Shown: positions 11,070 through 31,262 of the stretch, in pieces
Layout: each line of letters opens with the position of its first letter
Numbering within the stretch: position 1 is the stretch's first letter
Source of the DNA: Anaerolineae bacterium
GTDB lineage: Bacteria > Chloroflexota > Anaerolineae > B4-G1 > SLSP01
DNA length: 33,049 nt
NCBI GenBank assembly: GCA_003562365.1
Contig: PWVB01000248.1
Location: forward strand, 1-33,049
Reading direction: 5' to 3'
Made by a program: the position numbers and the translations under genes
The notes under the pieces: model-generated
Seen by the model: the letters and a program-made list of their open reading frames with translations, nothing else
Told to the model about the DNA's origin: nothing
Databases searched by the model: none

Positions 11070-12443
11070 TCATAGCGTCCAGTTCTTCGGCCAAGCGTAA
11101 TGGTCGTGGATGTCCTCGATGTAAGCCATAGGCTCATTGGGCTCCATATCAAAAAGCGCCTCCAGAGCCACCTCGGCCTGCTCGTAGGAGCGTGTCTGAT
11201 GACTCTCCAGAATACCGTAGAGGAGCATTGACTTATCACCACTGAGCAACGCCTCCAGCGTCTGCTCCATCCTCAACCAGCCCGGATAGATACACTCCAG
11301 CATCACCTTATTGGGCAGGGGCTCGACCCGGATCGGTTGGATGCCGCCACGATTAACGATAGCCGGCACCTCCACCGCAACGTCGTCGGGAAGGCCGGGC
11401 AGCGCTCCATCATTAATCACGTTCACCTGAGCACGATACTCATTGTCGTTGACCAGCGCATCGATGATCGGGACATGCTGCTCCCGCGTCTTCTCAGCAC
11501 CGAAGAGGGTGATCGGACGCACTTCATCGTCGTAGGCAGCGGCCTTCATCTGAGCGTACTTCTCTTCCTTGCCCTTCAGGATACGGTCACGGCCCTCCGG
11601 GGTGTCACCGCCACCGCCGGCCCCATACCAGCGCATCCGCGTCTCAAGATCGGTGTGGAACCACCAACCGCCGCTCCTGGGTGTATCGCCAATAGGGAAG
11701 AGCCCGTAGAGCTTGTACTGACGGATCGCCGAAGGCGACCATTGCGCTGGCACCCCATCCCCCTTATGGTCCTTCCAGTACTGCTCAATGTTCTCCGCAA
11801 TCCACCGATCCAGTAACGGGTAGGCATCCTCACCCTCGTAGAAGAACTGCGTCAACCAGATGTTGTGGTTCAGTCCCGGTGCCTGCCACCGCACCTTGTC
11901 TGGATCCAGCCCGATGGTCTGAGCCACGCGCCGATAGCCGTAGTGTCCGTGACAGAGGCCGCAGACTCGCACATCGGTCTCACGGCCCATCAAGGTCGTG
12001 CCGGCGAAGACCGGATTGCCTGCCAGCAGAATCCAGGCATCGGGGACGATGGCCTCGACATCCTTGGCAACGTCCAGCATCATCTGCAAATTATGGTATT
12101 CGGGCATGCCGGTGTGGCCATAGAAATAACCGTGCTCGGCCATCAGCTCACGACGGCGCTTCATAAAATACTCATTGTGAGTCACCGTGGCGGTGTTTAT
12201 GACGAAGTCAGCCTCCTGCAGCGACTCGGCGCGATCCAGCGTCCGTGCAAAGTTCAGATCCGACCCCAGATCCTCAGCGTAGCGCTGGGCCAGCCGATAG
12301 ACGACATCAAGGCGCTCCTCGTTGATGTCCATGAAATACACCTTGCTGCCCTTAAGATCCTCATTCAGGCAGAGATCTTTGACCAGGCCCAGCGAGAAGA
12401 CGACACTTCCAGCGCCGATAATGGTAACTTTGACTGCTGACAT
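11070..12443 (-). CDS. GH4-family NAD- and metal-dependent alpha-glycosidase, uronide type likely
   Basis: 457-aa cytoplasmic glycoside hydrolase family 4 enzyme. These use NAD and Mn and cleave by an oxidation-elimination-reduction route. Rossmann motif GAGSVVFS at 10-17, GNP at 142-144, active-site motif CHGH at 164-167, and GLNHNIW at 190-196 supplying the second metal ligand (H193). The CHGH motif excludes the phospho-glycosidase subgroups (CNVP, CDMP). From memory, alpha-galactosidases carry CHSV, the alpha-galacturonidase LplD carries CHEV, and alpha-glucuronidases CHG-type. That makes a uronic-acid-specific alpha-glycosidase the best guess. The rhamnogalacturonan context favours galacturonide or glucuronide ends. 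The ribosome-binding site is weak; the ATG is set by the conserved N-terminus. Confidence 0.88.
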   Translation of the reverse strand: MSAVKVTIIGAGSVVFSLGLVKDLCLNEDLKGSKVYFMDINEERLDVVYRLAQRYAEDLGSDLNFARTLDRAESLQEADFVINTATVTHNEYFMKRRRELMAEHGYFYGHTGMPEYHNLQMMLDVAKDVEAIVPDAWILLAGNPVFAGTTLMGRETDVRVCGLCHGHYGYRRVAQTIGLDPDKVRWQAPGLNHNIWLTQFFYEGEDAYPLLDRWIAENIEQYWKDHKGDGVPAQWSPSAIRQYKLYGLFPIGDTPRSGGWWFHTDLETRMRWYGAGGGGDTPEGRDRILKGKEEKYAQMKAAAYDDEVRPITLFGAEKTREQHVPIIDALVNDNEYRAQVNVINDGALPGLPDDVAVEVPAIVNRGGIQPIRVEPLPNKVMLECIYPGWLRMEQTLEALLSGDKSMLLYGILESHQTRSYEQAEVALEALFDMEPNEPMAYIEDIHDHYAWPKNWTL

Positions 12444-12522: not shown

Positions 12523-14421
12523 TTAATTTAGCGGCGAGACAGCCGACTCGGCGTCCTGCCAGGGTTCAAACACGATCTCTACGGTTTTGCCGCCGTGTTG
12601 TATGGTCAGAACAGGCTCACCAAACGAGCACTGACAGTAGGGCGTATCAAAGCGCTCTGTGTCCTTCAAGGGGATTGCTTCACCAGCAACCCGCAGCGGG
12701 CCCTCCCAGCCAAAGGCTATATTGCCCAACGACGGTGAGTCATAAGAAACCTGAAGGCCTTCAGTCTGGAGCGGACTGGAGGTAACTGCATCGACGAAGG
12801 CCGCGAAGCTGCCCCAGTCGGCCTGCCGCCCCATCTCACACACCCAGATGTTGTCCGGTGCCTCGACACGCAGTTCTACGTCTGGCACGTCGCCATCGGG
12901 CAACCAGCGGGATGGGTACTGAGAGTAGAGCGCGATATACCCCTTCCCTTTACGCCCACAGATCCAGTTCGTTCTCACCTCAACTTCATCGAAGGCCGAA
13001 CGGGGAAAATAGGCGTGCGAGAAGGGAAAAGCATCATCCTCTGGCAGGTGGTAGATACAGACGAGCACGTTCTGGTGTTGCGCTGCCCGGGGCATAACGC
13101 CATTACCCGCCCAGAAATTGGGTCGGGAGGTCTCGTCGTCGGCACCAGGGTGGTTGGTAAAGACAACGGCGTCGATGCCCAGTGTAGCCTGCCAAGTGTG
13201 CTGTTGATAACCGGGTTTGCCGGGGCGGTAGTCTTGGGCGCAGCTCAACAGATAGTCCGGCGTCCGGTAAGTCTGGATGTGGACCTCGGTCAGAGCATGG
13301 CAGTCCATGTCAGGATCGACGATCTCGCCATAGGCCTCCTCTTGCCAACGGAAGAGCTGATCGTAGCGTTTCTGATAATCCTCGTGCAGACGCACTCCAT
13401 AGGCTTCAGACATATGCTTCGAGAGCTCAAATACCTTGGGATGAAGGTAGTCTTGAACACTCCAGTAGAGATGCCCGTCCTCCACACTGTCATAGGCCAG
13501 ACCGTGGGCGGGCGCATCCTCGATATCAAGGCTGTGTCGCTCACGGTAGAGCTGCGGCGTTTCCAGGTCTGCAGCGACCTCGGCAATGAGCTCGGGGCAG
13601 CGATAGCCGCTGGTTGCCAGAGGCACCGTCCCCAGGCTGTTGGGACTGTTGAACAGCCCCATGCCAAACATCAGCTTGGCAGTCGATGCCGATCCTTCGC
13701 CCCGCCCTCCTTTGATCAGCCGTGCATATGTCCGACCGTGGGTGGAGCCGAAGACGCCACGGTAAGTGTGCAGGGCCATCTCGAAGAGGATCACATCGAT
13801 GAGCGATCCGGCCTTACGGCGTATCTCCGGATCTTCAGCGAAATCATAAAGATTGACCAACGCGAGCAGATCCTCCTCAAAGTAGCAGTTTGAAAGCCAC
13901 TCGCTGAAGCCGAAGCGCACGCGGAAATCCATCCAGCGGCGGATAAGGTGCAGTGCGTGATCCAAGTGATAACGCCCATCATTGCCGTCATTCGTGAAAT
14001 GGCGGTCTCTATACAGCTGTCCAGCCAGAAGCTCGTCGCTATGAAAGATGATCTGATGGTTCTCTGTGTGGTAGCAGCGGCGATTGTCACCAGCGGGCTC
14101 GTCCCACCAGTACTTAAAGTCCAGCACGCAGCGCTCGATTTCGGCAATCAACTCCGGAGCAATTCCGGGACTCTCCCGGTACTTGTACAAGATGCGCAGA
14201 AGGCCACCCACAGCAAAGTCACAACAGTCCTGGCGCGAGTCAACAAAGTCGATCGCCTCGCGAATCGGCGTCTCATCGACCGCCTTGCCCAGCTCCAGGC
14301 GCGCGATCTGACTGAAGAATCCGGTTCTGCCTCCGGGTGACTGAGCGGCGCAGAAGGCCAAGTACTGCTGCCGCCGCTCGTCATAGGTTTTTTGTGGTTC
14401 CGGCCAATAGACATCTTCCAT
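12523..14421 (-). CDS. Unknown toroid-like protein, short member of a three-gene paralogous family
   Basis: 632 aa, no signal peptide. It is homologous by eye to the proteins at 20.0-22.7 and 22.7-25.3 kb but lacks their roughly 300-residue N-terminal beta domains. Helical toroid region about 1-300 with three motifs: TENHQIIFHSDELL from residue 119 (E120, N121, H122), GFSEWLSNCYFEED 171-184 and GVFGSTHGRTY 222-232 (H228, R230). The C-terminal half carries TYRTPDY and FWAGNGVMPR and ends in beta-rich sequence. Conserved His, Glu, Asn and Arg suggest an enzyme acting on sugars, but I know no assigned family. The frame is open further upstream to 14463; AAGGAGG at 14427-14433 fixes the start at 14421. 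It lies between cupin and GH4 genes. Confidence 0.75.
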   Translation of the reverse strand: MEDVYWPEPQKTYDERRQQYLAFCAAQSPGGRTGFFSQIARLELGKAVDETPIREAIDFVDSRQDCCDFAVGGLLRILYKYRESPGIAPELIAEIERCVLDFKYWWDEPAGDNRRCYHTENHQIIFHSDELLAGQLYRDRHFTNDGNDGRYHLDHALHLIRRWMDFRVRFGFSEWLSNCYFEEDLLALVNLYDFAEDPEIRRKAGSLIDVILFEMALHTYRGVFGSTHGRTYARLIKGGRGEGSASTAKLMFGMGLFNSPNSLGTVPLATSGYRCPELIAEVAADLETPQLYRERHSLDIEDAPAHGLAYDSVEDGHLYWSVQDYLHPKVFELSKHMSEAYGVRLHEDYQKRYDQLFRWQEEAYGEIVDPDMDCHALTEVHIQTYRTPDYLLSCAQDYRPGKPGYQQHTWQATLGIDAVVFTNHPGADDETSRPNFWAGNGVMPRAAQHQNVLVCIYHLPEDDAFPFSHAYFPRSAFDEVEVRTNWICGRKGKGYIALYSQYPSRWLPDGDVPDVELRVEAPDNIWVCEMGRQADWGSFAAFVDAVTSSPLQTEGLQVSYDSPSLGNIAFGWEGPLRVAGEAIPLKDTERFDTPYCQCSFGEPVLTIQHGGKTVEIVFEPWQDAESAVSPLN

Positions 14422-14426
14422 TCGAT

Positions 14427-14433
14427 CCTCCTT
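14427..14433 (-). promoter_or_regulatory. Ribosome binding site fixing the start at 14421
   Basis: A perfect AAGGAGG on the minus strand 5 nt before the ATG. This shows that the 14 codons upstream in the open frame are not translated. Confidence 0.75.
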
Positions 14434-14479
14434 ACTAAGACAGCGCGGCGTGCGAAACACCATCGCGCCGCAGCAGTGT

Positions 14480-14782
14480 CTACTTCCTGATGATCACGAT
14501 GTACCGCAACGGCGTGTCACCGGTGTTCGTAAGGCCGTGGTGCTTTGTAGCTTCCAGCACCGCGGCCTGGTTAGGGCCCAAGGCATACTGCTTCTCGCCT
14601 ACAGCGAGCGTGCCGTGTCCCTCTAGAATGTAGAACGCCTCCACGCCCGCGTGGGTGTGTGGAGGATGAGCCGCCGTACCCGGCCCGATCTCCGAGATAT
14701 GCAGATGCAATGCATCCGGATCAACGTCCGGATCGACGAGGACCTCAGCCAATCCCCTTACTCGCTCAGACACAAGTGTCAT
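14480..14782 (-). CDS. Small cupin-domain protein
   Basis: 100-aa single-domain cupin (conserved beta-barrel), cytoplasmic. Metal-site residues are H42, H44 and E48 in HTHAGVE and H81/H82 later, with the second motif ending in YIVIIRK. In pectin pathways a cupin, KdgF, linearises 4,5-unsaturated uronate, so that role is tempting. This protein, however, has Glu instead of the KdgF Gln ligand and lacks the C-terminal Asp/Phe segment described for KdgF. A sugar-binding or isomerising role is therefore only inferred. GGGGAG stands 5 nt before the ATG, and it begins 25 bp after the GH43-like gene. Confidence 0.8.
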   Translation of the reverse strand: MTLVSERVRGLAEVLVDPDVDPDALHLHISEIGPGTAAHPPHTHAGVEAFYILEGHGTLAVGEKQYALGPNQAAVLEATKHHGLTNTGDTPLRYIVIIRK

Positions 14783-14807
14783 GCAGTCTCCCCTTTTGGC
14801 TTCTGGA

Positions 14808-15782
14808 TTATGCCTCGACCAGATAAGGGTAGCCTCCGGCCCAGTCGATGCGGCGCTGGGACAGATACCACGTCCGGCCTAGATCGTTGTTTCCTTGATA
14901 GAAGAGATACGTCGCTCCATCGTCCGCAGTATCGATGAAGACATAAGGATGCCCCGATTCACAGGCGTTCCAGCTCCCCGGTGTTCCGTTCGGCAGGAAA
15001 GGTTCGCGGGAAAGCCGCTGCCAGTGCAGCCCATCGTAACTCTCCGCACAACCGATCTGCTGCGGCCCGTTGTTGTAAGCTCCACCGTAGAACATAAAGA
15101 ACCTGTCGCCGTACTTACAGACCGCCGGGGCCTCGACACATTCCTGCTCCCAGGGCAGCTCCGGTCTTAGAATCGGGCCTTCACCAAGCTGAGTCCACGC
15201 CGAACGCCTGAACCGCGACACCGGCGATGTCTCCGCGCCCTCAAGCGGGGCCGCTGCAACTCCGAGCATCTGAGTCGTCATCGTCGGATCGCGCGTGGCG
15301 AAGTAGAGAAGCACCCTCTCGCCATCCCGGATCACGTCGGCATCAATGGCCCTCCCACACGTCCACTCACCGTTGGGTGCGAAAACGGGATTGGTGGGAT
15401 TGCGTGAGAAATGCAGCCCATCGCCCGAGACCGCATGACAGATCGCGTCTCGGGGACCATTACCATAGGTTTGGTAGAATAGATGGAGGCTACCATCCAA
15501 CACCAACGCCCCCGGGGCGCAGATACCGTTCTCCTCATATGCTGCACTCGGCAAGATCTCACCGAGCTTGTCCCAATTCTCAAGATCGTCACTGCGAGCA
15601 ATGCCGATGCCCCAACCCCAATTGGGCTGCCAAGCGAGGCGCCCGTCCCAGCTGTTATGCGTGGGTCCGGCGCCAAAAGGCGGCATCGAGTAGTAGAGCC
15701 AGTAGTGATCCGCAAAGCGAACCACTGCAGGGTCCTTGGCAAAGGGACGGCCCTTTCTGGTAGCGTCTCCATACATCATCAT
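14808..15782 (-). CDS. GH43-like five-bladed beta-propeller glycosidase
   Basis: 324-aa protein with the repeating blade pattern of GH43/GH32-type enzymes and the three expected acids: base D17 in KDPAV, D147 or D149 in AIDAD, and general acid E217 in CVEAPAV. GH43 members remove arabinose, xylose or galactose from pectin and hemicellulose side chains; which one applies here cannot be read from sequence. No signal peptide, so it would act on imported oligosaccharides. The frame is open up to 15839. I choose the first of three adjacent ATGs at 15782, preceded by GAGAGGTGG, because the extra 19 residues look unlike the family. The gap upstream is 316 bp, so an internal promoter is possible. Confidence 0.82.
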   Translation of the reverse strand: MMMYGDATRKGRPFAKDPAVVRFADHYWLYYSMPPFGAGPTHNSWDGRLAWQPNWGWGIGIARSDDLENWDKLGEILPSAAYEENGICAPGALVLDGSLHLFYQTYGNGPRDAICHAVSGDGLHFSRNPTNPVFAPNGEWTCGRAIDADVIRDGERVLLYFATRDPTMTTQMLGVAAAPLEGAETSPVSRFRRSAWTQLGEGPILRPELPWEQECVEAPAVCKYGDRFFMFYGGAYNNGPQQIGCAESYDGLHWQRLSREPFLPNGTPGSWNACESGHPYVFIDTADDGATYLFYQGNNDLGRTWYLSQRRIDWAGGYPYLVEA

Positions 15783-16098
15783 CGCTGATCCACCTCTCTC
15801 AGCCGCGGCCAGACATCTTGACGGGCCCTTTCTAACCACCTGTCAGCCCGCTGCGCCAGTGATGCTGGGCACAGTGCGCCATCAACACTGGTATGCCGGA
15901 TGTCAGCCAAAGCTTAGAGTGCCTTTGAAGAGCTCGGATATATGCTCTTAAGCCACTAAGAGCCTACATAACAAACAGCATGGACTCATTTGGCGAGATT
16001 GGGCGTTATGCGCACTGAATATCGCAACTGATGCGGCAATGATGGACAGAGAAGCTCCCCTTTCAAAATGTCTGAGCCGCGGCCCCGATTGATCCTGT
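15783..16098. other. 316-bp gap inside the minus-strand operon
   Basis: No gene seen. It contains a 7-bp hairpin (GCTCTTA 15944-15950 with TAAGAGC 15957-15963). On the minus strand a weak promoter-like pair TTGAAA/CATCAT with a 16-nt spacer lies at about 16030-16060. This is the largest break in the long series and the likeliest place for an internal promoter. Confidence 0.4.
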
Positions 16099-16482
16099 TC
16101 AGCCCATCCGTTCTAACCCATCGGTCAGCCGGTGGTTCACTGAATGGATAGGTTCAGCCAGCAGCACCAATGCCTCTAGTGTCTGAGCATCAGCGATCCT
16201 CTGCAGCAAGCTCTTCAACTGATCAACCCCGTCGATCTGGTCGAGGTCGTTGACCTCCAGAACCTGCAACAGGCGGCGGGCCCGTCCCAAGAGACGTTCA
16301 CGAAAATGGGGCAACGAAGCTGGACTGAGCATCTCGTGCCGCCACGCCGGTTCTAACTCGTGAAAGGCTGTACAGAGCTTCTGGATAAAGATCAGGGCCA
16401 CACCAGGCGTGCCCACCAGGCGCGCCCACTGCAGCTCCTCGTCTCGACCGTGCTCGCTCTGGCTCGTGGGGATGTAAGGCAT
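16099..16482 (-). CDS. Small helical protein of unknown function
   Basis: 128 aa, mostly charged helices and no membrane segment or known motif. Blocks such as LGRARRLLQVLEV and DQLKSLLQRIADAQTLEAL suggest a helical bundle or coiled coil. The frame is open upstream to 16560, overlapping the lyase gene. The ATG at 16482, 4 bp after the lyase stop with AAAGGG upstream, is the natural start and implies coupled translation. Not recognised; it could be a partner or regulator of the lyase. Confidence 0.6.
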   Translation of the reverse strand: MPYIPTSQSEHGRDEELQWARLVGTPGVALIFIQKLCTAFHELEPAWRHEMLSPASLPHFRERLLGRARRLLQVLEVNDLDQIDGVDQLKSLLQRIADAQTLEALVLLAEPIHSVNHRLTDGLERMG

Positions 16483-16486
16483 CGTA

Positions 16487-17644
16487 TCAACCCTTTTTGA
16501 CGCTCTCCAGGTCAGGGAGAGACTCAAACCTGGGCACATCCACAGCGAAGACCTGCCCATACCCCTGAGGATCCGCGGTGTAGATTACCTGGGTACCCTC
16601 GTGGTTGAAACACGGATGCAGGTGCACACGCTGGATGTGGAAGGAGCCACGATGCCAAGCCAGTACCTTGGGTCCCTCAAACTGATCATCCTTGAAGCGC
16701 CAGAGCAACAGGTAAGGATCCTGTGCATCGCCATCCCCCACAACCAAGTCCAGCATATAGCTGTGAAAATGCCAGCAGTGGCCCTCGAAAGGCGCTTCCA
16801 CCTGATTGGCATTATCGTAGCGGATGGCGCCGTAGACCGGTCCCGCTGCCGTCTTACCGTGATAGCCGATGTGCTCGCCATCCTGCAGCCAGTATTCGTG
16901 GCCGATCGCCTCGTCCGGGGCATTGGGCCGGATCTGCCACGTCTTTCCGGTCTCCAGGTCCAACCCCCAGATACGGTTCTCCACCAGGTGCCACGGGCCT
17001 TCATGACAGAAAGTCATGATGTTCGGCAGCTTCGACGAGCAGTTAAGATGGCCCAACCAGTAGTCCTCCTCAAAGACCACCTCCGGCTGACCACCATCGA
17101 TTGGGATCTTGACAATCGTCGAGTGAGGGTGGGCCTCCCAGACCTCCCGGAATCCCACGTAACCGTGCCCCAAATCGATCATAATCTCATCCGACAGGTC
17201 TTTGTGATGCCCGGCACAGATCGTCTGCCCGTCGGCCGTGGGGTTGGAGCTGCCACCCACATATCCCTCAGGCCGCGTGTAGAGCGGGCGCTGCGCCAGT
17301 GTCTCCAGATCCAGTGCCGTCAGAACGCTATTATGGTAGAAGTAGATCTCCTCACGCACTGGATTCTTGCTCAGCCCCCCGATCCGCCCCTGTGCTGGAG
17401 CAAAATCGGTTAGTTGGGTGATCTCACCGCTCCACAAGTCGACCCCAAAGAGATTGGTGCGATTCTCGCGGTCCGAGTAAAAGACAATCTTCCGGCCCTC
17501 ATCATACCAGCACGGATAGGTGAAGTAGAAGTGATTGCTGTGTCCCTTGTAAGCCGTTAGTTGATGAACCGTCGCGCCACTGATGGGATCGGAATAGACA
17601 TCCAACTCCGACTCCCAGCGAGCGCCAACATTCGTCCTAGCCAC
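16487..17644 (-). CDS. ogl: Oligogalacturonate lyase (PL22)
   Basis: 385-aa cytoplasmic beta-propeller lyase that splits digalacturonate and unsaturated digalacturonate by Mn-dependent beta-elimination, giving keto-deoxy-uronate monomers. Signature blocks are GHLNCS 198-203, FCHEGPW 212-218, GHEYW 248-252 and NRIWGLDL 223-230. The metal set of the Yersinia enzyme (one His, then Q-x-x-H-x-H) is intact here as H294, Q338, H341 and H343. H249 sits 45 residues before H294, as the catalytic base does in that enzyme. Length is normal for the family. Start is GTG with GGAGG 6 nt upstream. It follows the exo-lyase gene by 53 bp. Confidence 0.92.
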   Translation of the reverse strand: MARTNVGARWESELDVYSDPISGATVHQLTAYKGHSNHFYFTYPCWYDEGRKIVFYSDRENRTNLFGVDLWSGEITQLTDFAPAQGRIGGLSKNPVREEIYFYHNSVLTALDLETLAQRPLYTRPEGYVGGSSNPTADGQTICAGHHKDLSDEIMIDLGHGYVGFREVWEAHPHSTIVKIPIDGGQPEVVFEEDYWLGHLNCSSKLPNIMTFCHEGPWHLVENRIWGLDLETGKTWQIRPNAPDEAIGHEYWLQDGEHIGYHGKTAAGPVYGAIRYDNANQVEAPFEGHCWHFHSYMLDLVVGDGDAQDPYLLLWRFKDDQFEGPKVLAWHRGSFHIQRVHLHPCFNHEGTQVIYTADPQGYGQVFAVDVPRFESLPDLESVKKG

Positions 17645-17697
17645 AGTGCGCCTCCAGAGTGATGTAATGGATTAGTTGCTCCAACATTGTGCTACGC

Positions 17698-19962
17698 TCA
17701 GTAAGGATACTCGTACCAGTCTAGCAGGCTCAACGGTGTTGCGGCGCCGGCATAGAGCAGGATCGACGTGTACTTGTCAGCGAAGATCCGCCCACCACCC
17801 TCGCCGTCGATAACGGCCCCACTGTCGTCGGCGTATTTCGGGCGCCGACGCACCCCCGTATCCTGATCCATTGCGGCAAACTGGCGGGTCGCGATCTCCA
17901 GATAGCGCTCGTCACCAGTAATACGGAAGGTGTGTGTCAGTGCCTCCAGTAAATGGTAGGTTGGCGACGTGCGCCGCAGCGAAGGCAGCTCCTTATAGTA
18001 GGCGATCCCGTCCGGCCCCATACAGTGTGCCAGCATATCGTCTACGGTTCCGACGATGAGCTGCTTTACGCGCTCGGCCAACTCACCCTGGGGCTCGATG
18101 AGCAGATAGCGGGCAAAGGAGTTGACGGTCAGTGAGATCATAAAGGTCACCCGCGGCATCGTGTGACTGGTGTAGGGGGCCAGCAGCGCGCCGTATTCAT
18201 CAAACCAGTCGAGATACATGCCGACCAACCGCCGCGCCTCCTCACGCCAGCGCTCCTCGCCGGTGCCGATCCACATCCCGACCAGCGCGCGCAGCGCCCA
18301 TCCACCCTCGCGCACCGATGTGGCGCCGGGGGTCTGCATATGGGGACGCGCCAGGTGGCGCAGGATGTTCTCCGCGACCGAACGTGCCGCCGCCAGCGCC
18401 TCGGTGCGCCCGGTAAGGAAATAATAGTCCAGGAAGCCCTCCGTCCATTCATGAGAGGGGGTGACACCGCCGGTGACATGGTAGCGTGTATGGATCTTGA
18501 GGCCTCCGTCGATTAACGGGTCGGGGCTGTAGTGGCAGAAGTCCACATCCAGCCAGTGGCGTGCACTCACCAGCCCTGAATCCAGGACGCGGCGCTGCCC
18601 GGTAAGCGCATAGTAGAGCGCACAGGCATGCGGACGGTCGTATTCGTTGTTGACGAACACGCTGTGCCCCTGCCCGCGTCCCTGGTTAGTGTATCCCGCA
18701 TCCGGCGCATCACCGAAGTGGAACATGCCCAGCGCTTTGGGTCGTCCATCGTGCAACCGGTTCAGGAAAGAGATCAGGCGATCGGGAACCTGTTCGGGGA
18801 AAAAAACCTCCAGCCAGGGATTGTTGTCGCGGAACCAAGCCCGCGACACAGAGGGGCGGTCCGGCAGCTGGAACTGGAGGCTACGGACGCTACTCTCCTC
18901 AAGCGGTGCGTCGGGCCCATGGAAGAGCAGCTGCAGACGATGCGTCTTGGCCATCCCCTGCAGCAGCGGCGCGGGCTCCTCTCCTTCAGGATAGAGTCCG
19001 CAGACGATCCCCTCCTGGGTCACCCGCAGCGCTTTAGGGAAGTTCTGGTGCGCCTGAAAAACGGAGAGAGTCACCCCACCCTGAGCATCCCGCCAGTCCA
19101 CCCAGAAATCGCCGTAAAAACTGTCGATGAAGTGCTCGTTGGCCTGGTAGAGGATCGTCTCAGTATCGATGCCCATCTCCAGCGGTTCGGCGTCTGATTC
19201 CAGGATCGTGGTTCGATAGTAGCCTTGGCCCAGCGCCAGGTGTGGCGGGGCGGGGGCGTCAGACTCGGCAGTGACAGGTGCAAAGGCCAGGGCAAGGCTG
19301 TCCAGCGCCAGCTCCGGCGCGTCCTCTTTGTGAATGAACTGGTGCTCCACCTGCACGTACGGTTTGCCGGCGTAGGCCGTGATGCGCCCCCTGAAGTCCA
19401 GATACCCGCTGCCGTCGGCCTTGCGATGTTGGCCCTCGACAAGAATCACGGCTCTCAGCGGTCCAGCCTCCTCCACAGCGAGCGTCACGGGCCCCGTCGC
19501 CGTGGTAACACGCTGGCCGTCAAATCCAAGCTCGAAGCCGCTGAAAGGGGAAGAGTTCCACAGCGATACGCCCTCCAACACGACATCCCGCAGCGGCAGG
19601 AATCCCTCGTTAGGAACCAGAAACGAGAGCGGGCCCGTATCGACACCGAGGCCGAAGGGCGTCTCCTCAATGCTCACCTGCGCCGGGAGATCGGGAGTCG
19701 GTACGTCCTCGACAATATCGAAGGATAGGATCTTGTCCCGGTTACCGGGCAGGTCCGGCTGCAGATGCAATAAGAGCCACTTGATGGAACCGTCGGGCCA
19801 GGCAGCCAGAACACGGTTCTGACTGGGAACCAGCGCATCATCATCGCGGATGATCAACCGCTCAGGGGCCTCTAACGTGCCGGCCGCAAAGGGAATGCTG
19901 ACACTGACGGGCTCCGCATCGCGATCAAAGCGCGAGATCTTCTCGAAGTTGAGGGTGTTCAT
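17698..19962 (-). CDS. YetA/PcRGLX-type exo-rhamnogalacturonan lyase family protein
   Basis: 754 aa, no signal peptide. The N-terminal block (about residues 18-68) reads VSIPFAAGTL ... LVPSQNRVLAAWPDGSIKWL, the hallmark of the YetA-like family that includes the Penicillium exo-acting rhamnogalacturonan lyase (PL26) and Bacillus subtilis YetA. A beta-rich middle (100-370) is followed by a helical toroid-like C-terminus (380-754). That part contains VNNEYDRPHACALYYALTG 437-455 and a HVTGGVTPSHEWTEGF block near 495-510. The family reaction is beta-elimination removing an unsaturated galacturonosyl-rhamnose unit from rhamnogalacturonan I. In B. subtilis yetA lies beside lplD (GH4), matching the pairing in this operon. 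AAGGA precedes the ATG. Confidence 0.85.
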   Translation of the reverse strand: MNTLNFEKISRFDRDAEPVSVSIPFAAGTLEAPERLIIRDDDALVPSQNRVLAAWPDGSIKWLLLHLQPDLPGNRDKILSFDIVEDVPTPDLPAQVSIEETPFGLGVDTGPLSFLVPNEGFLPLRDVVLEGVSLWNSSPFSGFELGFDGQRVTTATGPVTLAVEEAGPLRAVILVEGQHRKADGSGYLDFRGRITAYAGKPYVQVEHQFIHKEDAPELALDSLALAFAPVTAESDAPAPPHLALGQGYYRTTILESDAEPLEMGIDTETILYQANEHFIDSFYGDFWVDWRDAQGGVTLSVFQAHQNFPKALRVTQEGIVCGLYPEGEEPAPLLQGMAKTHRLQLLFHGPDAPLEESSVRSLQFQLPDRPSVSRAWFRDNNPWLEVFFPEQVPDRLISFLNRLHDGRPKALGMFHFGDAPDAGYTNQGRGQGHSVFVNNEYDRPHACALYYALTGQRRVLDSGLVSARHWLDVDFCHYSPDPLIDGGLKIHTRYHVTGGVTPSHEWTEGFLDYYFLTGRTEALAAARSVAENILRHLARPHMQTPGATSVREGGWALRALVGMWIGTGEERWREEARRLVGMYLDWFDEYGALLAPYTSHTMPRVTFMISLTVNSFARYLLIEPQGELAERVKQLIVGTVDDMLAHCMGPDGIAYYKELPSLRRTSPTYHLLEALTHTFRITGDERYLEIATRQFAAMDQDTGVRRRPKYADDSGAVIDGEGGGRIFADKYTSILLYAGAATPLSLLDWYEYPY

Positions 19963-20025
19963 AGATTGTCCTTGTGATCTCCTAGAGAATACTAGACCGG
20001 GAAGCCAAAGCCCCCCGGTGGATGC

Positions 20026-22656
20026 TTAGCTTGCGTTTTCGGTGAAGTCCAGTCGCATCACTACATCGTCATAGCGGATGTCGATGAGGCCCGCCGGAAA
20101 TTCGGTGACACAGTAGGCGTTGTCGATATGTGTATCCAGCTCGAACGAGATCGGCTCGCCATCGACGAGACAGGAGCCCGTGGGATCCAGGCTCAAAGCA
20201 GCACCACGCAGTGTCGTCCAGCGCACCCCGCTTTCTTCAAAGACGACGGGGAGCGCCAGCACCTGCGCCTGGAATGCAGCAAAATCGCCGTCGGTCGCTG
20301 CGCGGCCCATCTGGCAGCGCCAGACGTTCTGCCGACCTGCCGAGCGCAGTTCTCGATAGGCCGTCTCACCCGTTTGCATCAGTGTTAGCCCCTGCGACGC
20401 AGTAATGGCAAGGTAGCCGTCATCCTTCCGGGCAAAGGCCCACTCATCGCGCAGAACATACTCATCGAAGGCGTGGACCGGGAAGTAGGCGTGAGTGAAG
20501 CCCATCCAGTCATCCTCGGGAAGCTCGTAAAGGGCCACCAGCGCGTCTTCCCACTGAACCACCCGGGGCAGCGCACCGTTGCCGCACCAGAAGTTCTGCG
20601 GATGTGCGTCGTCCAGACTAGCACAGACCGGATGGTTCACGAAGACGGTGGCACCGGGGCCTAAGGTAGCCTGCCAGAGATGTGTCGGGTCGCCACTCTC
20701 TCGCGCATCGTGTGTAGCATCACGCAGCGCGAACGTATCCTGGGCCGCGCAGATCATATAGTCGGGTGTCTTATAAGTGATCGTGCTGACGTCGACCGGG
20801 GCAGCCGCTTCCACAGCAGTGTGGCGTTCTCGGCTCACCAGAACCTCCGGCAGATCGGTGGCGATCGTCTGCAGCATCACCGGAAGCTGATAGTGTTCCA
20901 TCAGCGCCATACTCACCGGCGCATCGATGTGCACGTTGAGGACACCCATTCCGAACACCAGCTTCGCGATACCGGAAGTGCGTTCCAGATAGCCGCCCAG
21001 CAAGCCGCTTGCTGAGGTATATCCACGGCTGGCGCCGAAGACACCCTTAAAGGAGTTAGCGGCCAGCAAGAAGAGCGCCTTATCCAGCAGCACCGTCGCC
21101 GTCTGCCAGACGGGGTCGGCGTCGGCAAGGTCAACCAGATTCGACAGCGCCAGCAGCGTCTCGGCGAAGACGATGTCGGAGTGCCAGGCCTGAAAACCGT
21201 GGGTGCCGCGCGCCCGCATCCAGTCCAGGACGCGCTCCTCCCCCCGCGTCTGGTGCCACGCCCCGTTCTCCCCCGACAGAGCAAAGCTGTCCGACGGGTA
21301 GAGCTGCCCGGCTAACAGCTCACAGGTTGCCATAAGCAACTTCTGGCTCTCCGGCGCGCGATCCGCAACTGTATCGAAACTGGCCCCCAACACCGCCGTT
21401 TTGAGCGTCTTACCTATCTCCGTCGGGAATTGTTCAGCTTCACCGAAGCGGTAAACCATCGCCAGCAGACCGAGTAAGTCTGCATACGTTGAAGGGCCTC
21501 CCTGCGACACTTTGGCGACGGCCTGCTCAATAGCAGTGACATCCACAAACCTCCATAGATCGATGGCCATCTTGGCCAGTTCGGAGAAGATGTTTACCTC
21601 CCGACGCGCTGCGGCCAGCAGGATCTCCTGACGCCGCTCGGGATAGGTGCCGGTAGGAGCTGCCGTGTACTCATTGTTGTCCATTGACCAGAAGGGCACA
21701 GTCCGCGATATCCGCATGTTGCCCTCATAGTACTCTTGCGGACGGGGCATAATCAGCGCCTCCATCGCACCGGTTGGATAGATGTAGGCCGGCTTAATCT
21801 CTGCCTTAGCCTCCCCGGCCGCCGTTCGCTCCGCTTCGCTGTAGACCTTGCCTTCCGGTGTCTGAATGCGGATCGTGAGGGAGATAGAGACCTGCGGCGG
21901 CAATCCGACCTCCGCGGCAGCGGGCCACTCAAACCCGATGGTGTCGCGGCGGGCGAAGACGTACTGCCGCGAGATCGCAGCCTGAAAGACTTCCTCAAGC
22001 AACGCCCGACGGTCGAGTCGTGAGACCAGCGTCGGGAGGGCCACAGCTGGCGAGGGAAGAGCGGCGTTGACAGGGGCCACGCGCAGGGCCATCAGAAAGG
22101 GAATCGGCACAGCACCAAAAGTACCGAAGCGAACCAGGACCTGATTGCGGCCGGTCTGCAGATCGACCTGGAGAACCTGGTGACGGCGGCCGTTGCCCAC
22201 GTGTAGGCTCTGATGGATATGGCGGCCGTTCAGCCACAGATCTGCCGGGCCAGTGGTGGTTAATGTCAGCATCATCGCTTGAGCCTCTGAGCTCTCCAGT
22301 TCGGTGTAGGCCCAGGCCCGAAGGTAGTTCCCCTGGCCTGTGGCGCTGGACAGATCAACGAAATGATCTTCAAGGCAACGCACGTAGCGCCAGCGACCCT
22401 GGTAGTCGCCAATGGTCACGATACCCTCGTTCACCGCCGCCGGCTCAGCTGGCTGATCACCAATCTCGGGCTCAGGGTATGCCAGGGCTTGAGCGATCGC
22501 AAGGCGTGTATCGGGGCCCAGTCGAGTTGCGTCATCCCACTCTGCCGTGGCAGGTGAGTCGGTCAGCGCGTCGACGGGGACGATCTGGGGACCGACCACC
22601 AGCCAGTTATGGACATAGGCATTCTGCAGTTCATAGTTTAAGTAGCCAAGGGACAT
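20026..22656 (-). CDS. Unknown multidomain protein, paralogue with eroded motifs
   Basis: 876 aa, cytoplasmic by lack of signal. Residues 1-200 look like beta-sandwich domains, with a sugar-binding-like block NGRHIHQSLHVGNG near 143-156 and GTFGAVPIPFL at about 178-188. A linker and beta region runs to about 340, then a helical toroid about 345-600 and a beta-rich C-terminus with TYKTPDY, FWCGNGALPR and HAYFPVHAFDEY. It is homologous to the proteins at 12.5-14.4 and 22.7-25.3 kb. The three shared motifs are altered: E-N-H becomes E436-S437-Q438, the E-W-x-S-N-x-Y segment becomes A-W-H-S-D-I-V (490-496), and T-H-G-R becomes S-R-G-Y (543-546). It may be a non-catalytic partner or have a different substrate. 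CTCCTCCTC complement gives a good ribosome-binding site. Confidence 0.75.
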   Translation of the reverse strand: MSLGYLNYELQNAYVHNWLVVGPQIVPVDALTDSPATAEWDDATRLGPDTRLAIAQALAYPEPEIGDQPAEPAAVNEGIVTIGDYQGRWRYVRCLEDHFVDLSSATGQGNYLRAWAYTELESSEAQAMMLTLTTTGPADLWLNGRHIHQSLHVGNGRRHQVLQVDLQTGRNQVLVRFGTFGAVPIPFLMALRVAPVNAALPSPAVALPTLVSRLDRRALLEEVFQAAISRQYVFARRDTIGFEWPAAAEVGLPPQVSISLTIRIQTPEGKVYSEAERTAAGEAKAEIKPAYIYPTGAMEALIMPRPQEYYEGNMRISRTVPFWSMDNNEYTAAPTGTYPERRQEILLAAARREVNIFSELAKMAIDLWRFVDVTAIEQAVAKVSQGGPSTYADLLGLLAMVYRFGEAEQFPTEIGKTLKTAVLGASFDTVADRAPESQKLLMATCELLAGQLYPSDSFALSGENGAWHQTRGEERVLDWMRARGTHGFQAWHSDIVFAETLLALSNLVDLADADPVWQTATVLLDKALFLLAANSFKGVFGASRGYTSASGLLGGYLERTSGIAKLVFGMGVLNVHIDAPVSMALMEHYQLPVMLQTIATDLPEVLVSRERHTAVEAAAPVDVSTITYKTPDYMICAAQDTFALRDATHDARESGDPTHLWQATLGPGATVFVNHPVCASLDDAHPQNFWCGNGALPRVVQWEDALVALYELPEDDWMGFTHAYFPVHAFDEYVLRDEWAFARKDDGYLAITASQGLTLMQTGETAYRELRSAGRQNVWRCQMGRAATDGDFAAFQAQVLALPVVFEESGVRWTTLRGAALSLDPTGSCLVDGEPISFELDTHIDNAYCVTEFPAGLIDIRYDDVVMRLDFTENAS

Positions 22657-22748
22657 CTGGATCGTATCTCCTCCTCTGAAGTGGCCAGCAGCACTGCTTC
22701 AGTCTATGTAAGATTAAGGTGTGTCGTTTCGAATCTCCTCCTACCTCT

Positions 22749-25340
22749 CTATTGATTGAACCACAACTCGTAGGTCTCATCATCATAGCACAGCGTCAGC
22801 TCGCCGGCGCCGAAGTCGGCCTGCGCCCAAGCACTCTCCACCAGAGGGTAGCCGTCGAGCTTCACCGGCTCACCCTCGACCTCCGGGACAACGTCCCACC
22901 CGGTGGTGAATCGCCCAATGGAGGGGGAAACGTAGGTGAGGGCGTCATCCGTCAGACCGATCTCCGCAGCGCTTAAGGCGCGCACAAAAGCATCGAAGGT
23001 GCCCCAGTCCGCCGCACGGCCGCACTCGACCAGCCAGGTGTTGTCCGACGCCGTACAGATCAACTCGCGACCGGCATACTCCCCCTCATCACCGAAGGCC
23101 ATCCCGTGTTGCGAATAGACGCCGATATAACCATCGCCGACCCGGCCGAAGGCCCACTTCTCCTTAATCTCCACCTCGTCAAATCGCGCCGGTTCAAAGA
23201 AGCAGTGTGTCAGCCAGAAGAATTTCCTCAACCAAGTGTGCTCTAGCAACCGCCAGGTCAACGACAGCACGTTCTTAACCTGGATGACTCGCGGCAGAGC
23301 CAGATGTCCCGACCAGTAGTCCGGACGCAGCCCCGACCCCTCACCCGAGGTAAACGGGCAGGACCAGAAGACAACCGCCGGTTGCTCTCCAGATTTCTGT
23401 CCCAACGTTACCTGCGCGACGTGGGAGGAAGACTCCGGCTCGCCCTTACGGTGATCCTGCAGACCAGAAATCATATAGTCGGGCGTACGATAGACGCAGA
23501 AGTTGGCGCTCTGCGCCGATCCTCGCACCAATCCCTGACGCTGGCGTGATTCGATCACAGCCTGATCGTCGTTCGCCATCTTGTGCAGGATCTCCGGCAG
23601 CGCGTAGTCACTGGTCGCCAGCGAGACCGGCGCCATGCCGCTGGTGCCGGCGGTAAGCGCGGCGGTACCATAGAGCAACCAACAGGTCGCCGCCGTCCCC
23701 TCAAAATCCGGGTACTTCAGATTGATGCCGTAACTACGCCCGTGGGTGGTACCGAACACACCGCGATAGGTGTCGGCAGCGAGGTTAAAGAAGATCATAT
23801 CCAGAACGGCTCCCGCCATCTGGCGCAGCTTAGAGTCCTCGTAGATGGCAAAGTCGTGAACGTTGAGCAGGGGAGCAATGTTGACCGGATAGTAAGAGTT
23901 CGAATGCCACTCGTCGAACCCGAAGCGGCCACGTTGGCGCAGCCACTCGGTAATATAGGTGCGCCCCTTGGTTGCGTGGTAGAGGCCGCGCTGCCGGCTG
24001 TTAGTGAACTCCTCCGTCGGGAAGAGCTGCCCCGCCATCCACTCGGCCACGTGAAAGAGCAAACGGTGGTTCTCCGAACCCATATACATCACCGTGTCGC
24101 CCGGCTCGTCCACCCAATACTTGAACCCCAGCACCGTATCCTTCATCATAGCGTGGATCTCTGGACTGAGCAGGGGCCTGTGAGTCCGTTCCCACGCCAT
24201 CATCCGCAGGACGCCCTGGATGACAAAATCCGCGCAGTCCTTGCGAGCCGCGATAAACTCGCACGTCTCTCGAATCGCATTCTCGTCCACCGCCGGTGCG
24301 TCAGCCACACCCGCTTGGTGTAAGGCATAGCGGGCTACCTGGGTCCAGATCGGGCGGCGCTCCTCGTTGGCGGCGTAGTGCAGCAGCACCTGCTGCTTAC
24401 GCGCCTCGTATCGTCCGTATCCGGCCGGCGCGATTCTGGGTGAGGCTCGTTTGAGATCGAAGGTGACATCCGTCATCGACCAGCTGGCGCGCAGAGTGTA
24501 GGCACCATCGGGTAGCGCCTCTGCAGAACACAGCGAGGTCGCGCCGGCGGCGCTCGCCTCAGCCTCCGCCACCACCGCGCCTGCGTCCGAAAGCAGCTGC
24601 AGCAGCACCGCCCCCTGAGGCGCCGACGCCAGCGTCACATCAATGGAATGGTGAGGATAAAAGACATCCCGCGTCAGGCGCAGGCCGCTCACCTCCACCT
24701 CGATCTGGCGCCGACGCTCCTCCGTCATACCTTCCGGCAGCGGGAGGCGTGCCTCGACTTCATCCTCTATCGGCGTCAGGTGCAGTCCCACCCGTGCCAT
24801 TCGGCCTAGGCGGAAGAGCGCTACCGTTAACCGATGGTCGCCATCATCCAAGTCAGCTTCGAACTCATACTGGTAGAGGCCGTCCTGTCGCATCACCGGC
24901 TGCTCGGCGGTGTTAAGAACAAGCTCGCCATTCACGCTGACGATGGCCTGCGACGAGATCTCCGTGGTCAGTCGCCACCGATACGTGCCCGGCTTGGCGG
25001 GACGCACCAACGTGGTTAAAAAGGCAGCGCCCAGATGGTTGGAGATATTGTACTGCCCCCACGAGAGAAAGGGCTCGGGGCGGCGGACCAAGGACCAACA
25101 GGCGGTGTGGCCACGGAAGTCGGCGTGATCCCCCTCGCGGGGGGCAGCGGCTAATACGGGCAGCGCCTGGGCTGCCACCTCCTCCATCACAGTCTTCCCG
25201 ACCGTTGCTCCCGGTCGCTCAAAGAGGGTCAGGCCCTCGACCTGGTCACCCAGATCTTCATAAAAAGGGCCCAGGATCAACCAGGGCCTAAGTGTCTCGC
25301 CGGCAGCGACACGGCGTGGGTCCAAAGTGAGCGTTTGCAT
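22749..25340 (-). CDS. Unknown multidomain protein, full-length paralogue with intact motifs
   Basis: 863 aa, no signal peptide. The N-terminal beta domains (1-300) begin with the WLILGPFYEDL type of sequence (20-30) seen at the start of many sugar-active beta-sandwich modules and contain a binding-domain-like SVNGELVLN (135-143). The toroid (about 310-600) has DCADFVIQGVLRM 368-380, GSENHRLLFH 421-430, FGFDEWHSNSYY 473-484 and GVFGTTHGRSY 527-537. Candidate catalytic groups are E423, H425, E477, N481, H533 and R535. The C-terminal half holds YRTPDY and a beta-rich end. Its ATG directly abuts the TAG of the small membrane protein gene, with AGGAGG 7 nt upstream, so the two are translationally coupled. 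Function unknown; a glycosidase or lyase for rhamnogalacturonan is inferred. Confidence 0.78.
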   Translation of the reverse strand: MQTLTLDPRRVAAGETLRPWLILGPFYEDLGDQVEGLTLFERPGATVGKTVMEEVAAQALPVLAAAPREGDHADFRGHTACWSLVRRPEPFLSWGQYNISNHLGAAFLTTLVRPAKPGTYRWRLTTEISSQAIVSVNGELVLNTAEQPVMRQDGLYQYEFEADLDDGDHRLTVALFRLGRMARVGLHLTPIEDEVEARLPLPEGMTEERRRQIEVEVSGLRLTRDVFYPHHSIDVTLASAPQGAVLLQLLSDAGAVVAEAEASAAGATSLCSAEALPDGAYTLRASWSMTDVTFDLKRASPRIAPAGYGRYEARKQQVLLHYAANEERRPIWTQVARYALHQAGVADAPAVDENAIRETCEFIAARKDCADFVIQGVLRMMAWERTHRPLLSPEIHAMMKDTVLGFKYWVDEPGDTVMYMGSENHRLLFHVAEWMAGQLFPTEEFTNSRQRGLYHATKGRTYITEWLRQRGRFGFDEWHSNSYYPVNIAPLLNVHDFAIYEDSKLRQMAGAVLDMIFFNLAADTYRGVFGTTHGRSYGINLKYPDFEGTAATCWLLYGTAALTAGTSGMAPVSLATSDYALPEILHKMANDDQAVIESRQRQGLVRGSAQSANFCVYRTPDYMISGLQDHRKGEPESSSHVAQVTLGQKSGEQPAVVFWSCPFTSGEGSGLRPDYWSGHLALPRVIQVKNVLSLTWRLLEHTWLRKFFWLTHCFFEPARFDEVEIKEKWAFGRVGDGYIGVYSQHGMAFGDEGEYAGRELICTASDNTWLVECGRAADWGTFDAFVRALSAAEIGLTDDALTYVSPSIGRFTTGWDVVPEVEGEPVKLDGYPLVESAWAQADFGAGELTLCYDDETYELWFNQ

Positions 25341-25838: not shown

Positions 25839-27563
25839 TCAGGCCAGCCATAGCGGCATTGGCCGTCCCTTCTCCCATAGATCGCTAGCATAGAGAAAAC
25901 GATAGACATCGGTGATATAATACTGCCCGAAGCGTTTCTTGGGAAGCACTTCGACGAGGCGGGAGGCTAGGTTGTCGGCAGCGGCTTCATCAAGCCCGAT
26001 GGAGACCTCATAGTCAAAGTAAATCGCCAGATCCTGAACCGCTGGCTCTGCGATGTGGGTGATCCCATAGGCCTGCGGCGACTGCTGCGCCGGCGCGTAA
26101 CGCTCTAGCAAGAACGCCCCCGGCGAACCCGAGTGGATGGTATCTTGATGAGCGTAGACGAAGTTGACCGTCTCCTGCGCATCATCCAACGTCTCACCGG
26201 GGAAGCCAAAGAAGAAGAAAGTGTGGTTCCAGATGCCGGCAGCGGCGCTGTCGCGCAGAACACGGCTCATGATCTCGCGCCGCGTTCCTTTGTGCATCCG
26301 TTCGATGGTCGATTCTGCAGCGGTCTCCAGCCCAAAGAGCAGCATCCGCCCGCCCGCCTCAGCCACTGCCTCCAGGAGCCCTCGATCGAGCCCGGGATCG
26401 AACCGCACGCACCCACACCAGTGCAGCACCGGATCCGCATCCGCCAGCCGCACCGCCAGTGTCCTGAGCGTCCGCGGCGTCAGCGCCTCATCGGCAAAGA
26501 AGATATGGCGCGTCCCATACCTCCTGTGGAGCGTATGCATCTGTTCAACCACCAGATCGGGATCGATCAGACGAAAATGCTCAGGGCCACCGTACCCTAC
26601 GTTACAGAAAGCACATTTTCCGTGGTAACAACCGTGGGAGCTCAGCAGGGGAAGAACCGGCGTCGGCGTCAGATAACGATCCAGCGGCAGACCATCGAAG
26701 TCCGGTGTCAAATCCGGAGACGAATTAACCGAGCTGGCTTCCACCGGCGTCATCCGCACCTCGCCACCCGACCGGTAGATCAGATTAGGCACCTGCGCCA
26801 GATCGCCGTCCCCATCCAGCATCTCTGCCAACCTTAGAAGTGCCGACTCCCCACTGAAGACAACGGCGCTATCGAACAAGTCAAAGAGGGCCGGAACCCG
26901 CGGGATCTGATCACGCAGCATCGAAACATGCGGACCACCGACCGAGATATGACACGGCAATCCCGCCTCTTTAACCAAGTGCGCCAGCGTCATCGCAGCC
27001 AGCATCTGATCAAGAGTAATGATTGAGATACCGACGATGTCAGGCACTTCTCGAACGATGTCGGGAAGTATCCCTTCGCGGAGAGGCTCATAAACGAGGT
27101 TGCGCTGTGGATCATCCACTATGGGCAGCAGCTGTGTGCTCTGATCGACGGCAACGGGCGGCCTGAAGCTCGTAAACTGAAGATAAGCTGGATAGAACGG
27201 CAACGAAACCAATCCCAAACTCTGTACCAAAATCATAAAGGCCGCGTGGCTCGTCGGCCCATCGTAGAACCGCCCATCACGCAGTACTGCCTTGGCAGAT
27301 TCCACCTGGGACGCATACTTCGGAATCTGTGCTAGGGCCGATGCCGTCTTAGCGGTAGACAGAGCCTCAGGTGGATGCTTTTGCAGGCGCTCAGCGGCTG
27401 CATTCAGTGCCCCTGGGGTCAGCAAGCGGTCAAAGACCTCGAGGTTGAGATCCCGCTGGAGCACCGAAATACTCTGGGACCGCAGGTGCGCAGTCAGCGT
27501 TGGCAATGCCAACTGCGGCATGGTCGGGATCCAATGTGGGGGGGAAACAAGAAGGATCTTCAT
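25839..27563 (-). CDS. B12-binding-domain radical SAM protein
   Basis: 574 aa. An N-terminal region starting MKILLVSPPHW leads into a cobalamin-binding-like Rossmann domain (about 165-250; DIVGISIITLDQ, ISVGGPHVS). A radical SAM barrel follows, with cysteines C312, C317 and C320 (CYHGKCAFC, spacing C-x4-C-x2-C rather than the usual C-x3-C-x2-C, a variant I recall in some B12-type members). Later blocks FADEALTP, FGLETAAESTIERMHKGT and FFGFPGETLDD are typical of the family. Such enzymes often methylate or rearrange unreactive carbons; the substrate here is unknown. The site upstream lacks a clear Shine-Dalgarno. A promoter-like pair lies about 100 bp before the ATG, so it may open a sub-operon running into the sugar genes. 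Confidence 0.85.
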   Translation of the reverse strand: MKILLVSPPHWIPTMPQLALPTLTAHLRSQSISVLQRDLNLEVFDRLLTPGALNAAAERLQKHPPEALSTAKTASALAQIPKYASQVESAKAVLRDGRFYDGPTSHAAFMILVQSLGLVSLPFYPAYLQFTSFRPPVAVDQSTQLLPIVDDPQRNLVYEPLREGILPDIVREVPDIVGISIITLDQMLAAMTLAHLVKEAGLPCHISVGGPHVSMLRDQIPRVPALFDLFDSAVVFSGESALLRLAEMLDGDGDLAQVPNLIYRSGGEVRMTPVEASSVNSSPDLTPDFDGLPLDRYLTPTPVLPLLSSHGCYHGKCAFCNVGYGGPEHFRLIDPDLVVEQMHTLHRRYGTRHIFFADEALTPRTLRTLAVRLADADPVLHWCGCVRFDPGLDRGLLEAVAEAGGRMLLFGLETAAESTIERMHKGTRREIMSRVLRDSAAAGIWNHTFFFFGFPGETLDDAQETVNFVYAHQDTIHSGSPGAFLLERYAPAQQSPQAYGITHIAEPAVQDLAIYFDYEVSIGLDEAAADNLASRLVEVLPKKRFGQYYITDVYRFLYASDLWEKGRPMPLWLA

Positions 27564-28753: not shown

Positions 28754-28762
28754 GCATCCACA

Positions 28763-28767
28763 CTCCT
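28763..28767 (-). promoter_or_regulatory. Ribosome binding site favouring the GTG start
   Basis: AGGAG on the minus strand 9 nt before the GTG at 28753, inside the longer open frame. It argues against the TTG at 28780. Confidence 0.5.
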
Positions 28768-28875
28768 GTCGCCTGATCAAACGCTACCAAGCCATCAGAT
28801 CTCGAGGTTCGAGAACCCTTTCGCCCAACTACACCGGCGTCGCTCATCATCACAGCGCTCATTCACTCGTCGCCT

Positions 28876-30087: not shown

Positions 30088-30088
30088 G

Positions 30089-31078: not shown

Positions 31079-31204
31079 GGACTGCCTCCTTCATGAAAAA
31101 CCTGCCCAACACTAAGTTGCTGAGATAAGCGGCAAGGAATCCGCGACAGCACCTGAGGACCTGCCTCCGATTCCTTGTCCCTCATCCCCCTAAGGATTCA
31201 GCAC

Positions 31205-31234
31205 CTGGAGGGTGAGTGAGGGCTCACCCTCCAG
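31205..31234 (-). promoter_or_regulatory. Strong hairpin between binding-protein and permease genes
   Basis: A perfect 12-bp stem (31205-31216 with 31223-31234) and 6-nt loop, 28 bases after the binding-protein stop codon, with no U-run. A second, longer-looped stem (9 bp, 31133-31141 with 31169-31177) lies between it and the permease start. Hairpins here commonly protect the abundant binding-protein mRNA or attenuate read-through to the permeases. Confidence 0.6.
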
Positions 31235-31262
31235 AGTATAGCGATGCAAAACCGGACTCAGG

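Follow-up and report, generated by a model that had tools for sequence, protein, structure and literature searches.

The window analysed here, a 33,049-nucleotide stretch of DNA from an Anaerolineae bacterium, carries three paralogous genes of unassigned function in a gene run without a GH88/GH105 unsaturated uronyl hydrolase, which raises the question of what reaction, if any, their products would catalyze. In the initial annotation they were regarded as candidates for an undescribed glycosidase or lyase family that stands in for GH88/GH105 and finishes rhamnogalacturonan fragments. The lyase side of that proposal agrees with the fold, the Asn-His/Tyr residues and the GH105/KduI/KduD context, while the stand-in role is not supported. 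The three proteins, together with the product of 8675-10720, probably constitute an undescribed lyase family of the (alpha/alpha)-toroid plus C-terminal beta-sandwich superfamily, acting by beta-elimination on imported uronate oligosaccharides. At the family level the term undescribed is provisional, the family being set apart by comparison with Pfam, NCBIfam and PDB and not by CAZy family models, and its fold and chemistry are of an already known kind. The genes concerned are the following.

7652-8665: second ABC ATPase (Pfam).
8675-10720, minus strand: remote fourth member, 681 aa (hhalign; no family match).
11070-12443, minus strand: GH4 family NAD-dependent glycosidase (Pfam).
12523-14463, minus strand: paralogue 1, predicted toroid plus beta-sandwich, catalytic type, without N-terminal domains (open reading frame of 646 codons; AlphaFold2).
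14480-14782, minus strand: small protein of 100 aa with a cupin fold, encoded immediately upstream of paralogue 1 (PDB matches to generic cupins).
14808-15839, minus strand: GH43/GH32-type glycosidase homologue (Pfam).
16487-17644, minus strand: PL22-like oligogalacturonate lyase homologue (Pfam Pectate_lyase22, E 2.5e-28).
17698-19962, minus strand: PL26-like (PcRGLX-like) rhamnogalacturonan exolyase homologue (Pfam PcRGLX_1st/2nd above cut-off).
20026-22656, minus strand: paralogue 2, probable pseudoenzyme, 876 aa, with the sequence architecture of paralogue 3 (open reading frame, alignment).
22749-25340, minus strand: paralogue 3, catalytic type, 863 aa, about 300 residues of predicted beta domains plus toroid plus beta-sandwich (open reading frame, AlphaFold2).
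27725-33023, minus strand: oligopeptide-type ABC importer, whole set (Pfam).
27725-28780, minus strand: ATPase of the importer (Pfam).
28876-30087 and 30089-31078, minus strand: the two permeases of the importer (Pfam).
31263-33023, minus strand: binding protein of the importer (Pfam).

The open reading frames of the three paralogues are intact, all on the minus strand, and their kinship, as originally described, is evident in pairwise BLASTP comparisons (E 2e-101 for paralogues 1 and 3, 6e-68 for 2 and 3, and 1e-43 for 1 and 2). The conserved start of paralogue 1 is probably Met15, giving a protein of 632 aa. The additional N-terminal residues of the two long proteins, about 300 in each and absent from paralogue 1, were also recovered, and those of paralogue 3 are predicted to be beta-rich in the AlphaFold2 model. 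Over the catalytic part, none of the three proteins matches Pfam or NCBIfam, where all matches are below threshold, the best of them being to an Ig-like domain within the N-terminal part of paralogue 3; in Pfam, neither PF07470 (GH88/GH105) nor the Hepar_II_III/alginate-lyase families (PL12, PL15, PL17, PL21) match any of them, and the PcRGLX domains (PL26) are found solely in the neighbour at 17698-19962. Among PDB sequences there is no relative of paralogue 1 or paralogue 3, and a profile of 19 members, the only form in which paralogue 2 was compared with PDB sequences, yields PA14-like and CBM-like matches restricted to the N-terminal region, plus one chance-level match. Literature searches found no characterized relative with measured activity. 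The expectation that the catalytic part has no clear match to a characterized family thus held for Pfam, NCBIfam and PDB sequences.

The protein encoded at 8675-10720, in the same gene run, has no match in Pfam, NCBIfam or PDB sequences either, and profile comparison shows it to be distantly related to the three paralogues (hhalign probability 95.5, E 1.4e-8, 230 columns). A homologue with 74% identity lies near a family gene in another Chloroflexi genome (locus L009), and a further one occurs in genome G153.

Regarding the setting, the label of rhamnogalacturonan operon is reasonable in view of the PL26-like gene and two PL22-like genes detected with Pfam in the window, that at 16487-17644 being one of the two. 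The ABC importer would bring in uronate-containing oligosaccharides, and the catalytic members, 12523-14463 and 22749-25340, which show no evident export signal, are probably cytoplasmic.

AlphaFold2 models cover paralogues 1 and 3, the former built from a ten-sequence alignment. The model of paralogue 1 (pLDDT 79.6, pTM 0.85) is helical up to about residue 380 and beta-sandwich after it, that is, an alpha/alpha-toroid followed by a C-terminal beta-sandwich; in that of paralogue 3 (pLDDT 71.9, pTM 0.68) the first hundred residues are unreliable, and the N-terminal part is similar to beta domains of the GH2 and CBM6/PA14 types. The best Foldseek match in PDB is, for both models, the PL15 enzyme Atu3025 (3.4e-5 for paralogue 1); PL33 BT4410 (4.4e-5), heparinase III, a chondroitinase and a PL8 hyaluronate lyase are also among the top matches of paralogue 1. 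In VIA-align, toroid lyases or dermatan sulfate epimerase occupy every one of ranks 1-40 for paralogue 1 (Z 8.2-10.8, with alignments of 351-437 residues that span approximately residues 25-615), and the top 35 rows for paralogue 3 are lyases and the same epimerase (Z 9.2-11.2, over residues 308-832); across both models 351-457 residues are aligned at Z 8.2-11.2. The best structural matches of paralogue 1 are therefore spread over PL15, PL33, PL12, PL8 and PL17, together with the mechanistically related epimerase. These matches are remote (rmsd 5.5-8 A, Z around 8-11, middling Z values being common), although consistent and spanning both domains. The toroid-like character originally attributed to the proteins is accordingly seen in the models of paralogues 1 and 3, and it is PL toroids, not GH88/GH105 or GH127, that overlay best in Foldseek and VIA-align. 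A GH127/GH146-like toroid glycosidase was rejected, since such proteins appear at Foldseek ranks 16-25 only, with E around 0.03 or worse.

The predicted superfamily would be that of heparinase II/III, PL8, PL15, PL17 and PL33, and the comparison with its members is instructive. The exotype oligoalginate lyase Atu3025 (3a0o/3afl), an Agrobacterium enzyme working at the oligosaccharide level, shares the toroid followed by a C-terminal beta-sandwich, whereas it has other motifs and no detectable sequence similarity to the family (around 10% in the structural alignment). Its N-terminal beta domain, comparable to that of the long paralogues, is missing from paralogue 1. The PL12 heparinase III and the PL17 enzyme Alg17c have the two domains in the same order, and the PL8 hyaluronate, chondroitin and xanthan lyases, PL33 and the GAGases align in toroid and beta-sandwich over most of the protein but have no sequence match to the family. 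The PL27 L-rhamnose-alpha-1,4-D-glucuronate lyase, which also combines a toroid with a beta-sandwich and desaturates GlcA, has the beta-sandwich at the N-terminus and the barrel at the C-terminus (PMC8377490); PL27 identity was rejected on account of this opposite domain order, the model of paralogue 1 having the reverse arrangement, and the paralogues have no sequence match to a solved structure.

The presence of human dermatan sulfate epimerase (6hzn) among the best matches of both models (Z 10.2 for paralogue 1 and 11.1 for paralogue 3) is what a uronate C5-epimerase, with the same fold and the same abstraction of the C5 proton, would predict. Nevertheless, the gene setting is catabolic (importer, GH105, KduI, KduD) and biosynthesis genes are absent, which makes an epimerase very improbable.

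At the sequence level, the six motifs noted earlier (DCxDF, ENH, EWxSN, THGR, TPDY and FWxGN) are all present in paralogues 1 and 3, the last one reading YWSGH in paralogue 3. The motif order had been considered common to all three proteins, which is correct for these two and not for paralogue 2, where four of the six are altered: DCxDF is gone, ENH has become ESQ, EWxSN has become AWHSD and THGR has become SRGY, so that TPDY and FWxGN are the sole motifs kept. The residues of paralogue 1 on which the reading of the active site depends are the following.

14059-14061, minus strand: Asn135 of paralogue 1.
14056-14058, minus strand: His136 of paralogue 1.
13882-13884, minus strand: Tyr194 of paralogue 1.
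13732-13734, minus strand: Arg244 of paralogue 1.

Their equivalents are Asn424-His425, Tyr483 and Arg535 in paralogue 3, and Asn140, Tyr190 and Arg242 in the remote member at 8675-10720, which has Ile at the His position. In the alignment of 30 members, Asn, His, Tyr and Arg244 are all present in 23, one sequence is incomplete at the Asn-His region, and in the remaining six Asn, His and Tyr are lost together; at the position of His422, five otherwise intact members have Thr and one has Asn. From their sequence pattern, Asn135-His136 and Tyr194 are placed as the Asn-His and Tyr of heparinase III, the spacing being 59 residues in the family and 54 in heparinase III. The corresponding pattern of Alg17c is Asn201-His202...Tyr258, and the H202L and Y258A mutant structures of this enzyme are among the VIA-align matches of paralogue 1. 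Unlike heparinase III and Alg17c, the family carries the extra motifs DCxDF, EWxS, GR and FWxGN, and its profile-profile match is not significant: against a heparinase alignment (A4) built from the same phylum, which matches solved heparinase III and PL17 lyases, hhalign gives E 0.17, and the single segment aligned, not significant by itself, is the Asn-His helix.

The simultaneous loss of the three residues is confined to one clade of the maximum-likelihood tree (support 100/99), in which paralogue 2 groups with five other members and which adjoins the intact Chloroflexota members. Paralogue 2 has Ser437, Gln438, Val496 and Tyr546 at the Asn, His, Tyr and Arg positions, and is probably a pseudoenzyme that has apparently lost the active site and kept the fold. 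The members of this clade have long open frames in several genomes, one being cut by a contig end, and the pattern fits a single loss, after which the long frames were maintained over a long period; because of this, pseudoenzymes explain the clade better than decay does, and paralogue 2 would be a probable binding or assembly partner. The same retained frames could suggest that the whole family consists of non-enzymatic binding proteins, but every other complete member, from archaea to Chloroflexota, keeps the residue set, and such a general role has very little probability.

Relatives of the paralogues are scattered. Further copies occur in the window genome (contigs C114, C434, C495 and C143), a relative with 76% identity is present in the Chloroflexi locus L009, and others were found in Paraflavitalea, Mucilaginibacter, Devosia, Flavimaricola, Lelliottia and another enterobacterium, as well as on 199 plasmid records, mainly from rhizobia and Pseudosulfitobacter but also from the archaeon Haladaptatus; none of the related loci is in viral contigs or in E. 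coli. Intact members span archaea, Bacteroidota, Bacillota, Pseudomonadota and Chloroflexota, and, where annotation is given, it reads 'hypothetical protein'. The family is sparse, with 3 of 201 genomes of the phylum, 1 of 149 around Paraflavitalea (family level) and 1 of 240 around Flavimaricola (class level), and because of this rarity in the genome samples the neighborhoods were drawn mostly from plasmid records.

Across these neighborhoods, a GH88/GH105 gene lies near the family gene in 13 loci, ranging from Rhizobium to Subdoligranulum. It follows the family gene directly in Lelliottia, the other enterobacterium, Flavimaricola, Rhizobium, Sinorhizobium sojae, Subdoligranulum, Catenovulum and Thioclava; it is just upstream, with kduI alone in between, in Pannonibacter, Shinella and Sinorhizobium chiapasense; and it is located about 6 kb away within one cluster in Pseudosulfitobacter and Salipiger. 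In Paraflavitalea (L010:9914-13060) the family gene is fused to a C-terminal GH88/GH105 domain (E 9e-56) as a separate module; this fusion protein has a lipoprotein-like signal, and GH125 and GH97 genes come after it. Of the 15 bacterial loci that lie outside Chloroflexota and whose flanks are both known, 14 have a GH88 neighbor or fusion, the exception being Devosia and the Mucilaginibacter locus, which ends at a contig end, not being counted; Devosia and Haladaptatus have intact members without a GH88 neighbor. In four of these genomes there are 2-12 GH88 genes in 4.5-8.8 Mb, so that proximity below 10 kb would be expected by chance in a few per cent of cases per locus, although the loci are partly related by descent and not all independent. 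Moreover, six loci have kduI, kduD or both in the cluster, those with annotation showing no further lyase, and GH28 genes are found in the Rhizobium and Sinorhizobium operons.

Of ten partner genes tested, nine are assigned to a single GH105 equivalog model, and the one compared with structures is closest to a solved GH105. The GH105 partners (L042, L013, L030 and others) also exceed the cut-off set for NCBIfam NF051900, 'beta-galactosidase BglB' (Agrobacterium). That function was not accepted for the partners, a literature follow-up of the name having been without success, and the name may mislead, as the kduI/kduD neighbors in several loci point to unsaturated uronides. In two enterobacterial genomes, a protein of 557-566 aa is encoded directly upstream of the family gene (L013:7151-8824 and L015:7123-8820), and the cluster also contains GH105 and a PTS EIIBC gene; the L013 copy has no Pfam match.

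In view of the lyase fold, the Asn-His/Tyr residues and the GH105 neighbors and fusion, the most likely role of the family is to generate unsaturated uronyl groups, upstream of GH105. The suggestion that it replaces GH88/GH105 was abandoned as a general role: relatives encoded together with GH105, and once fused to it, imply that the family acts before this enzyme. The narrower possibility of a glycoside hydrolase, such as a hydratase-hydrolase of GH88 type taking the place of GH105 in Chloroflexota, would suit the five Chloroflexota genomes examined, all of them devoid of GH88, where uronides, unsaturated or saturated, must be processed by other means, but besides this coexistence with GH105 the nearest folds are lyases, not GH88/GH105 or GH127, and a hydrolase is decidedly improbable.

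The main rival of the lyase reading is an oligosaccharide dehydratase, which would eliminate water across C4 of a saturated terminal uronate and so create the end used by GH105 without cutting the chain. The ulvan oligosaccharide dehydratase P29_PDnc offers a precedent, since it is cofactor-independent, acts by C4 elimination and feeds a GH105 (PMC8511951), as proposed for the family. The fold, the Asn-His/Tyr residues and the close coupling to GH105 would be explained equally well by a dehydratase, which would also suit the operons with GH28, an enzyme that would leave saturated ends, in Rhizobium and Sinorhizobium. Nevertheless, P29_PDnc uses Asp248 and Lys303 and stays active without Tyr306 (PMC8511951), in contrast to the Asn-His/Tyr of the family, which gives no sign of kinship, and homology is not evident. 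Dehydratases of this kind are also rare, and all the solved proteins of the same fold in the top rows are lyases or the epimerase, so that this alternative is considered unlikely, if less so than the others.

The preferred reading, a lyase, is based on homology, predicted fold, residue conservation and co-loss, and gene context. The roles of single residues are taken from the known mechanism of the toroid lyase superfamily. Asn135, with His136, would neutralize the C5 carboxylate, and Tyr194, assisted by Arg244 and a beta-sandwich histidine (His422 or His483), would take the C5 proton and protonate the C4 leaving group, yielding a 4,5-unsaturated uronyl product; the enzyme may act on its oligosaccharide substrate in an exo mode. 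In most bacteria the GH88/GH105 hydrolase, whether co-encoded or fused, would take over this product, and KduI/KduD would follow.

This scheme does not fit the lineage of the window. The absence of GH88/GH105, already noted for the operon, extends to the whole 97%-complete window genome, where KduI was not found either, and GH88 is also absent from four Chloroflexota genomes with this family or that of 8675-10720 (G201, G065, G145 and G153). Because the window genome lacks both enzymes, the expected downstream route is absent from the very genome in which the paralogues were noticed, and the lyase reading leaves the fate of the product unexplained in this lineage. The cupin gene at 14480-14782 is a candidate for the missing product-processing step, its order with paralogue 1 being kept in the 76%-identical locus L009, where the cupin has 70% identity; its matches are to generic cupins only, and a KdgF-like role is a guess. 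A fuller scenario, in which a new lyase family has a dead sister clade in Chloroflexota, catalytic and dead paralogues cooperate, and the product follows a route needing neither GH88/GH105 nor KduI, is put forward tentatively and is more doubtful than the lyase assignment itself.

If the assignment is correct, it would provide a function for the 'hypothetical proteins' encoded beside GH105 in rhizobia, roseobacters, enterobacteria, Bacteroidota and Bacillota, and would explain the source of the unsaturated substrates for those GH105 enzymes, and the pectin/uronate toolkit would gain a sequence family whose active site is open to testing. The Chloroflexota loci, in turn, raise the questions of what becomes of the product when neither GH88 nor KduI is present and of what maintains the dead paralogues. 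The gene run of the window also includes a radical SAM protein with a B12-binding domain (25839-27563, minus strand), encoded between the importer and the paralogues.
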